Below, piece after piece: positions 12,244 through 17,756 of a stretch of DNA of 40,796 nucleotides (positions are counted from its first letter, which is position 1; every line of letters begins with the position of its first letter). The position numbers were made by a program, and so were the translations under genes. The DNA comes from Oscillospiraceae bacterium (lineage in GTDB: Bacteria; Bacillota; Clostridia; Oscillospirales; Ruminococcaceae): positions 1-40,796 of the forward strand of contig JAFYZY010000025.1 of assembly GCA_017548485.1 (NCBI GenBank). The letters run 5' to 3'. The notes under the pieces were generated by a model that ran no database searches, had not been told where the DNA came from, and saw only the letters and a program-made list of their open reading frames with translations.

Positions 12244-12285
12244 AACAGAATGATCTCCTAATTTTCAGTTAGTCATTTTCTTATA

Positions 12286-12314
12286 GATATAGGCGAGAAT
12301 CCCCGTGCTTTCAA
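12286..12314 (-). promoter_or_regulatory. Outward promoter toward the APH gene, inside a transposon-like end
   Basis: Minus-strand TTGAAA (12309-12314), 17-base spacer, TATATC (12286-12291). The -35 lies in the loop of the hairpin at 12302-12321. Confidence 0.45.
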
Positions 12315-12321
12315 ACATGGG
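12302..12321. repeat. Hairpin resembling an IS200/IS605 element end
   Basis: CCCGTG (12302-12307) can pair with CATGGG (12316-12321) with one G-T pair and an 8-base loop, inside the context GAATCCCC...GGGATGAATCG. Subterminal imperfect hairpins of this look are typical of IS200/IS605 ends. No second copy is in the window, so the assignment rests on appearance and on the tnpB remnant 200 bases away. Confidence 0.4.
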
Positions 12322-12365
12322 ATGAATCGCACAATCAGATGACTGATCAGTAAAACACTGATCCA

Positions 12366-12394
12366 TTGATAATATTGTAGCTTTGTTGTAGAAT
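12366..12394 (+). promoter_or_regulatory. Promoter of a short structured RNA
   Basis: TTGATA (12366-12371), 17-base spacer, TAGAAT (12389-12394). Predicted start about 12401. It points toward the terminator at 12467-12490 and the tnpB remnant. Confidence 0.6.
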
Positions 12395-12400
12395 AACAAC

Positions 12401-12490
12401 AACGAAAGATGATGTCGGCGGAGATATCCGCAAGTGAACGGTTCAACTGAATGACCTGATACACATGCTCATCTTCGGATGAGCTTTTTT
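12401..12490 (+). ncRNA. Putative 85-90-base structured RNA or tnpB leader
   Basis: Lies between a good promoter and a near-ideal intrinsic terminator. Stems: GCGGA-GATA-TCCGC (about 12418-12431), the odd palindrome TGAACGGTTCA, and the terminator stem GCTCATC-TTCG-GATGAGC. A 5' GATGA (about 12409-12413) could pair with TCATC of the terminator, which would give an attenuator. No ORF of useful size fits inside. It is just upstream of a truncated tnpB and could be a leader of that element, a relative of the RNA motifs known beside IS605 orfB genes, or an independent small RNA. I do not recognise the family. Confidence 0.5.
12467..12490 (+). terminator. Intrinsic terminator with UUCG tetraloop
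   Basis: A 7-bp perfect stem (12467-12473 with 12478-12484), loop TTCG, followed by six T. It ends the putative short RNA. Confidence 0.9.
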
Positions 12491-12730: not shown

Positions 12731-12917
12731 CCATGGGCATCGTGCCGGAGTTGATTTCGTTGAAGGTCAGTCATTATTTGACCTTGTCCTTGTAGCGGGA
12801 AAAGATTATTTTACAGTATTTCTCGAAACAGCTGATGACTTCCCGCCCGTACCAGCCGTTATGCTTTTCCGCCAGAGCGTAGGGAAGCTCATAGTGGGAG
12901 ATCGTGACCAACGGCTC
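12731..12917 (-). pseudogene. Fossil fragment of a GH1 6-phospho-beta-glucosidase gene
   Basis: The minus strand reads EPLVTISHYELPYALAEKHN, then GWYGREVI and RYKDKVK, two adjacent stop codons (12771-12776), then LTFNEINSGTMPMG. In intact GH1 enzymes the two stop positions are Tyr-Trp (KYWLTFNE, as in the complete gene at 16278-17756), so single changes TAC to TAA and TGG to TGA explain them. About 60 codons of some 480 survive, around the acid/base glutamate. It begins 3 bases after the stop of the AEC gene and in the same frame. Its residues differ from the intact GH1 gene (for example YELPYALAEKH against DEMPDHLARHY), so it is the relic of a different gene. Confidence 0.8.
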
Positions 12918-16277: not shown

Positions 16278-17756
16278 TCAATAGTTCAGATCTTCTCCGT
16301 TGCTGGCGATGACCTTCTTCATCCAGTCAAAGGAGTCCTTTTTGTAACGCTTGAGGCTACCGTTGCCCTTGTCATCCATATCGACGTAGACGAAGCCGTA
16401 GCGCTTTTTCATCTCGCCAGTGCCGAGGGAAACCAGGTCGATGGGTGCCCACATGGTGTAGCCAAAACAGGGGACCTTGTCGATGTTAATGGCGTCTTTC
16501 ATCTGCTGGAAGTGTTCGGAGAGAAACTTCATGCGGTAGGGGTCGTGGACTGTGCCATCTTCTTCCAGCTTGTCAATCTCGCCAAGACCGTTTTCAATTA
16601 CGAAGACGGGCTTCTGATAACGGTCGTACAGCTCGTTGAGGACGAAGCGCAGGCCAAGCGGATCGAGGGACCAATTCCAGGGGGTCTTCGGCAGGTAGGG
16701 GTTGGTATCGCCACCCATGATGCCGATGGGATCGATGGAGGTAAAGTGGTCGGCGCAGATCGTAGTGCTGCGGTAGTAACTGAAGCTCACGAAATCCAGC
16801 GGATAGGCCTTGATCAGTTCCAGGTCACCCTCACGGATGTCCAGCTTCACGTTCTTCCTGGCGAAGATCTCCGCAGCGTAGTTGGGATACTCGCCGCGGG
16901 CCATGGTGTCGATGAAGAAGTAGTTCTCCCGACGCTGCTTGTACCAGGCGAAGACGTCTTCGGGCTTGCAGGTAGCAGGGTACATGGCAGACATGGCGAA
17001 CATAGAGCCGAAGATCGCGTCCGGCATCCGCTTGTGTCCCTCGCGGATCGTGATGGCGGAGGCGACGAACATATGGTGCTCTGCCTGATAGTAGGTCTGG
17101 GGGTCCATGCGGTGAACGCCAATTTTGGAGTAGCCGTGGATCAGGTTCAGCTCATTGAAGGTCAGCCAGTATTTCACTTTCCCCTTGTAGCGGTCGAACA
17201 GCGCCGTCGCGTAACGGACATAACAGTCGATTAGATGACGGCTGTGCCAGCCGTTGTAATGGCGGGCCAGGTGATCGGGCATCTCGTCGTGACAGATTGT
17301 GATCAGGGGCTCGATCCCACAGGCCAGGCACTCGTCGATGACCTTCTCATAGAAGTCCAGGCCCTCTTCATTCGGGGTCAGTTCGTCGCCTGTTGGGAAA
17401 ATACGGGACCAGCAGATCGAGAAGCGAAACACAGAGAAGCCCATTTCAGCCATCAGGTGGATGTCTTCCTTCCAGTGGTGGTAGAAGTCCACGGCCTTGT
17501 GGCTGGGATAGTACTGATCGTCATACATGCAAGGCTCAGCGCCTTCCGGCAGGCTCTCCAGAGAGTTGACCGAGCCGCGGCTGCCGTCTGCCATCTTCAG
17601 TGTAATCTGACGCTTGCGGCCGACGCTTCCGTCGGTAACGAAGTCCTGTGCATTGATCCCGCGTCCACCTTCATTGAAGCCGCCCTCATACTGAAAGTCC
17701 GCCGTGGCGCCGCCCCATAAAAAACCTTTTGGGAACGGTTGTGTGGAATGCTGCAT
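16278..17756 (-). CDS. bglA: GH1 6-phospho-beta-glucosidase
   Basis: 492 residues, family length. Splits 6-phospho-beta-glucosides delivered by the PTS into glucose 6-phosphate and an aglycone or glucose, in the cytoplasm. Seen: N-terminal FPKGFLWGGATADFQYEGG (8-26), acid/base Glu202 in LTFNELN, nucleophile Glu388 in FVIENGLG, and the phosphate-binding Ser443...Lys451-x-Tyr453 of the GEMKKRYGF segment, which marks 6-phospho enzymes. GAGGAGGAG lies just before the ATG. Arginine is mostly CGC/CGG/CGT, unlike the AGA/AGG-rich neighbours outside the block. It is the second gene of the beta-glucoside operon, after the VOC gene (42-base gap) and before the PTS gene. Confidence 0.95.
   Translation of the reverse strand: MQHSTQPFPKGFLWGGATADFQYEGGFNEGGRGINAQDFVTDGSVGRKRQITLKMADGSRGSVNSLESLPEGAEPCMYDDQYYPSHKAVDFYHHWKEDIHLMAEMGFSVFRFSICWSRIFPTGDELTPNEEGLDFYEKVIDECLACGIEPLITICHDEMPDHLARHYNGWHSRHLIDCYVRYATALFDRYKGKVKYWLTFNELNLIHGYSKIGVHRMDPQTYYQAEHHMFVASAITIREGHKRMPDAIFGSMFAMSAMYPATCKPEDVFAWYKQRRENYFFIDTMARGEYPNYAAEIFARKNVKLDIREGDLELIKAYPLDFVSFSYYRSTTICADHFTSIDPIGIMGGDTNPYLPKTPWNWSLDPLGLRFVLNELYDRYQKPVFVIENGLGEIDKLEEDGTVHDPYRMKFLSEHFQQMKDAINIDKVPCFGYTMWAPIDLVSLGTGEMKKRYGFVYVDMDDKGNGSLKRYKKDSFDWMKKVIASNGEDLNY

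Follow-up and report, generated by a model that had tools for sequence, protein, structure and literature searches.

Transcription-attenuation leaders, such as the pbuE-type adenine riboswitch and protein-dependent leaders, carry a terminator and an antiterminator that are mutually exclusive. In IS200, a terminator within the left end has been reported to limit tnpA and to block incoming host transcripts. To our knowledge, little has been established about the means by which tnpB elements keep down the amount of a potentially harmful nuclease. In a 40,796-nt contig of an Oscillospiraceae bacterium (hereafter the window), we found a conserved interval that is probably the 5' leader of tnpB, acting in cis as a transcription attenuator, in a tnpB-only element of the IS200/IS605 type.

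The interval resembles the known attenuation leaders in its order of promoter, structured leader, terminator whose 5' arm is predicted to pair alternatively upstream, and gene; it differs from them in that its sequence lies outside the Rfam 15 families, that the gene it would control is tnpB, and that the predicted antiterminator strand forms its extreme 5' end. As at the left end of IS200, the terminator is placed where it would restrict expression of a transposon gene; however, the gene here is tnpB, the promoter is internal to the element and precedes the terminator, and one arm of the terminator is predicted to have a conserved 5' segment as a second pairing partner. The reRNA (omega RNA) of TnpB and the IS605-orfB RNA motifs are likewise associated with tnpB of IS605-type elements, whereas the leader lies upstream of the gene and has no right-end hairpin, no guide and no Rfam match. 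The element itself resembles the tnpB-only (IS1341-like) members of IS200/IS605 in its OrfB_IS605 and Cas12f1-like_TNB domains, subterminal hairpins, TTTAY left flank and reRNA-like tnpB 3' end. Unlike its relatives in Solobacterium, which have tnpA at this place, it has a 91-nt conserved leader. The sequence family is new, and the kind of device is already known.

The features of the locus are listed in Table 1. An earlier note on this DNA had described a promoter, TTGATA-17-TAGAAT (12366-12394), and a terminator beside a tnpB remnant, and all three were present. Within the left end of the element, the promoter precedes the truncated tnpB, and an ORF-free stretch of approximately 88 nt separates it from the terminator. 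MDREEKNNRIREKGKATRERHANMLCRCYEVKVDSSKMSRKQKDDVNALFREVKW of the window corresponds to the N-terminus of an intact TnpB (locus L026), the remnant being homologous to the 453-codon tnpB frame of that locus over approximately 55 codons; this N-terminus alone gave no Pfam match. Because L026 and other copies show the whole layout, the window holds what is left of a decayed IS200/IS605-type element of the tnpB-only kind: its left end, its leader and the first ~55 codons of tnpB, the remainder having been lost. Positions 12757-12798 are repeated with 83% identity at 17152-17193, inside a minus-strand gene (16278-17756) whose product looks like a GH1 glycosidase, and this repeat suggests that a gene fragment directly follows the truncated tnpB.

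Table 1. Features of the tnpB leader locus in the window
Feature	Position	Strand	Remarks
Presumed target flank, TTAT	12281-12284	+	TTTAT or TTTAC in other copies
Left end of the element, IS200/IS605-type: GGCGAGAAT, hairpin CCCGTGCTTTCAAACATGGG, ATGAATCG	12292-12329	+	
-35 hexamer, TTGATA	12366-12371	+	-35 region differs from copy to copy
-10 hexamer, TAGAAT	12389-12394	+	
Leader RNA, predicted terminated transcript (5' end inferred)	12400-12490	+	Model R1: 102.9 bits
Conserved core, CAACGAAAGATGATGTCGGCGGAGATATCCGCAAGTGA	12400-12437	+	79-97% nucleotide identity
Predicted antiterminator P1, 5' strand: CGAA, bulged A, GATGA	12403-12412	+	
P2 hairpin, GCGGA-GATA-TCCGC	12418-12431	+	
Intrinsic terminator, GCTCATC-TTCG-GATGAGC-TTTTTT	12467-12490	+	Stem 12467-12484, UUCG loop, T6
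P1 3' strand (terminator 5' arm and loop)	12469-12477	+	
Truncated tnpB, N-terminal ~55 codons, running on into unrelated sequence	12515-~12680	+	

The intact copy, L026, belongs to the Oscillospiraceae MAG RGIG5635, from sheep duodenum. In it, the left end is followed by promoter, leader and terminator, then by a tnpB frame of 453 codons and the right end. Its TnpB carries the OrfB_IS605 (PF01385, 9e-13) and Cas12f1-like_TNB (PF07282, 8e-11) domains and, by inspection, retains the expected RuvC acidic positions in GIDFG, QDEM and SRD. The right-end hairpin of L026, CTCGTGCTTTCAAGCATGAG, resembles the left-end hairpin, CCCGTGCTTTCAAACATGGG, and is followed by TAGTTCAC. Most copies share the start GCGAGAAY-N-CCCGTGCTTTCAAACATGGG-ATGAATCG, with TTTAY conserved in position approximately 10 nt before GCGAGAAY; the flanks farther out are unrelated between copies, and the left end is 92-100% identical among all copies compared. 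Subterminal hairpins are thus present at both ends as in IS200/IS605, judging from the copies compared on the left and from L026 on the right. The reRNA-like region overlaps the tnpB 3' end and closes with the right-end hairpin plus TTCAC, beyond which the flanks vary; the differing flanks at the right ends of other copies place the reRNA at the tnpB 3' end, as usual.

No tnpA (Y1 transposase) was found between the left end and tnpB, and none of the nine Y1 transposases of the genus that we examined had a cognate left end beside it. The absence of tnpA is consistent with the tnpB-only subgroup. Y1 transposases L207, L208, L214 and L215 (genus g1) adjoin end hairpins of other kinds. A short MITE-like derivative in L042 (G004:C38, approximately 1725-1975) has the left end and a right-end-like GGGTAATTCAC, separated by approximately 150 unrelated bases that carry a hairpin of their own.

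Promoter-like sites in 4 kb numbered 7 (4.6 expected) and terminator-like sites 3 (3.4 expected); because such signals alone are expected by chance over this length, comparison must decide. The 261-base region around the interval recurs on four other contigs of the same genome and in seven of the eight remaining genomes of the genus. Counting all genomes of the genus, 8 of 9 have related left ends, as does one further genus, and the leader accompanies most of these ends. Eighteen distinct copies of the tnpB element, from two genera, share the -10 box, core and terminator with unchanged spacing (four of these copies are cut by contig ends), and the complete tnpB-linked copies scored 91-104 bits with the covariance model. 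A -10-like hexamer (TAGAAT, TATAAT or TACAAT) lies at a nearly constant distance from the core in all copies. The tnpB-linked leaders follow the pattern CAACGAAAGATGATGYCGGCGG-N6-CCGCAAGTGAA, a variable segment of 28-32 nt, GCTCATC-TTYG-GATGAGC and a run of T's; the terminator reads ACTCATC...GATGAGT in one lineage, has a single-side change in another and a shortened loop in a third. The order and spacing of promoter, core, terminator and tnpB are kept in genera g1 and g68. At the sequence level, it is this recurrence across copies that makes the promoter and terminator significant.

Among diverged copies, identity was 79-97% in the core (the first 38 nt) and 83-100% in the terminator, compared with 66-78% in tnpB coding DNA, where the full segment was available, and approximately 40-60% in the spacer. 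The variable segment was 50-79% identical (90% in the closest pair), and both it and the spacer are saturated. Since the core and terminator exceed both the tnpB coding DNA and the spacer, selection acts on the leader itself and holds these two parts more strictly than the protein gene. P2 and the terminator show modest covariation: the outer pairs of the terminator covary around six invariant inner pairs, and the fifth pair of P2 occurs as A-U, U-A, C-G or U-G with 4 mismatches in 18, the four lower pairs changing from G-C to G-U only. The GATA-loop stem described in the earlier note exists and its stem is conserved, but its loop varies; the 11-base odd palindrome that the note had also pointed out belongs to the variable segment and lacks conservation.

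Covariance-model matches were limited to the genus itself and one other genus of the family (~91 bits), and nothing convincing was found elsewhere in the family, order or class samples. Matches in other genera scored 31-39 bits; one (G359) lies within an apparent coding sequence, and the others inspected were chance-like or driven by the terminator; three further weak matches at class level scored 31-34 bits. Eighty viral contigs with the core pattern were scored, the best at 19 bits, as expected by chance, and no TnpB relative was found in viral contigs; plasmids and phages gave no leader match. In Rfam 15, no family reached its gathering score for 12400-12490 (best sub-threshold score 21.6 bits against a gathering score of 47), and membership in the IS605-orfB RNA motifs, one of three identities considered in the earlier note, is not supported insofar as Rfam 15 includes them; with E values up to 10, only weak matches to unrelated sRNA families appeared, mainly via the terminator. 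In the literature that we searched, no 5' attenuator on tnpB is described. The interval is, as far as sequence comparison goes, a real conserved tnpB leader that is absent from Rfam and from the papers found.

An intrinsic terminator that is conserved across relatives thus lies between the promoter and the gene. The tnpB start is only approximately 15-30 nt past the T run; because this gap has no space for a second promoter, a polymerase that starts at the conserved promoter has to pass the terminator to transcribe tnpB. Among the three identities proposed in the earlier note, a leader attenuator of the transposon is the best supported, given the conserved order from promoter to tnpB, the missing space for a second promoter and the mutually exclusive predicted hairpins. 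The order of the parts, their conservation, the terminator sequence and the lack of promoter space are shown by the sequences themselves; transcription, its regulation and the identity of any signal are inferred.

The competition between a 5' GATGA and the terminator suggested in the earlier note does exist and is longer than was claimed, since CGAA-A-GATGA is complementary to the terminator 5' arm and loop, UCAUC-UUCG, and copies with UUUG pair via G-U. P1 can form in all tnpB-linked copies whose arm is readable. Its pairing (12403-12412 with 12469-12477), found in 99.3% of cells, is invariant, and the alignment therefore gives no evidence for or against it. When growing transcripts were folded by partition function, the predicted P1 occupancy was ~1.0 until the terminator stem was all but finished in 6/6 lineages examined; in the full-length transcript the terminator won in five of the six. 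The energy of the terminator minus that of P1 was -1.4 to +2.4 kcal/mol without the T tract, which makes the two nearly isoenergetic. Per lineage, 2-9% of shuffled leaders matched the sequestration of the terminator arm; against shuffles, the 18-nt duplex at the 5' end gave p values of 0.015-0.054, and a third helix, P3, was not consistently beyond shuffles. These features suit a bistable attenuator, in which P1 and the bistability are predictions.

In the mechanism that we propose, transcription would start near 12400, and the emerging 5' arm and loop of the terminator would first be paired by the nascent CGAA-A-GATGA to form P1, enclosing P2 and the variable segment. Once the 3' arm of the terminator is complete, the hairpin could displace P1 and release an RNA of approximately 88 nt; if P1 holds, the polymerase would continue across the next 15-30 nt and enter tnpB. 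The conserved core would set the fraction of read-through, or let some factor set it, and thereby the dose of the nuclease. The signal, if there is one, may be TnpB or the reRNA complex as a first guess, or a small molecule or host protein as a second.

Several copies lack either the leader or tnpB. Two related TnpB groups (53-58% identical) have no leader, and in the Solobacterium relatives (TnpB 58% identical) tnpA occupies its position; L045 and L053 of Solobacterium look complete: their tnpA and tnpB point the same way, and their left-end hairpin is similar. The G006 elements (L039, G006:C250; L064, G006:C314) have the left end, promoter and tnpB without leader and terminator, and their TnpB is 82-87% identical to that of leader-bearing G004 copies, so this looks like a secondary loss and the leader is dispensable at least sometimes. 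L039 and L064 amount to a natural deletion of the proposed attenuator. Conversely, a diverged leader and terminator on the minus strand of L076 (G001:C74, ~1501-1592) have neither left end nor tnpB and sit approximately 60 nt past the stop of another gene on the same strand. This is the only known copy unlinked to tnpB; its predicted folding gave zero P1 and a dominant terminator. It is probably a remnant kept as the terminator of the upstream gene, or possibly a standalone RNA.

The main rival to a switching attenuator is a plain attenuating or insulating terminator, which would lower tnpB expression and block transcripts from host genes without any switching, the core being conserved for another reason, such as a protein site on the DNA or the initial transcribed sequence. 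We consider this unlikely. In its favor, the terminator is present wherever the leader is complete, P1 lacks covariation and is sometimes mimicked by shuffles, and low expression would benefit multi-copy elements. However, it leaves unexplained the strong conservation of the first 38 nt and the invariance of the six inner terminator pairs; the frozen pairs fit an arm shared by P1 and the terminator, whereas a plain terminator needs no such freeze. Moreover, changes confined to G-C and G-U in the 4-bp lower stem of P2 suit an RNA and not a palindromic DNA site. Improbable, in our judgment, is a small RNA acting in trans, in which the released 88-nt RNA would be the product and would act on tnpB mRNA, the reRNA or host targets. 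The interval does have its own promoter and terminator and conserved unpaired segments, and the G001:C74 copy stands without tnpB or left end; yet that copy may be the terminator of another gene, the other complete copies directly precede tnpB or its remnant, and pairing was no better than that of shuffles (as good in 0.55 for the reRNA, 0.31 for the tnpB 5' region and 0.62 for whole tnpB). The third identity raised in the earlier note, a small RNA that outlived its transposase, is superfluous, since the window copy is decayed but keeps its left end and intact relatives have the leader before tnpB; although G001 has one copy with no tnpB behind it, conservation was seen as part of the tnpB leader, which disfavors an independent small RNA.

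An upstream guide RNA scaffold or a mimic of one, serving TnpB as a decoy like the reRNA or omega RNA, is very improbable: the single local similarity, of the G075 leader to the reRNA region, was marginal (p 0.034) and had no counterpart in the other lineage tested (p 0.41), and the leader lies 5' of tnpB, ends in a terminator and has no right-end hairpin, whereas the reRNA-like region is at the tnpB 3' end. Attenuation through a leader peptide encoded by an ATGATG mini-ORF in the core is scarcely credible. ATG ATG and open codons do occur in several copies, e.g., MMSAEISASERFN in the window; however, stops and codons vary, there is no SD at proper spacing, and in two G004 copies a P2 loop shorter by one base shifts the frame and leaves the stem intact.

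Returning to the cis-acting attenuator, we tentatively suggest, as a possible but doubtful elaboration, that the leader is sensory: the core would bind TnpB (or the reRNA complex) or a metabolite and tip the balance between P1 and the terminator, giving feedback on the TnpB dose. Natural comparisons are available in the G006 elements that lack the leader and in the G001 copy that lacks tnpB. Should the attenuator be confirmed, TnpB expression would have in this compact leader a direct, testable point of control, and if the sensory reading is true, the transposon would meter its own RNA-guided nuclease through a new sensory leader RNA.
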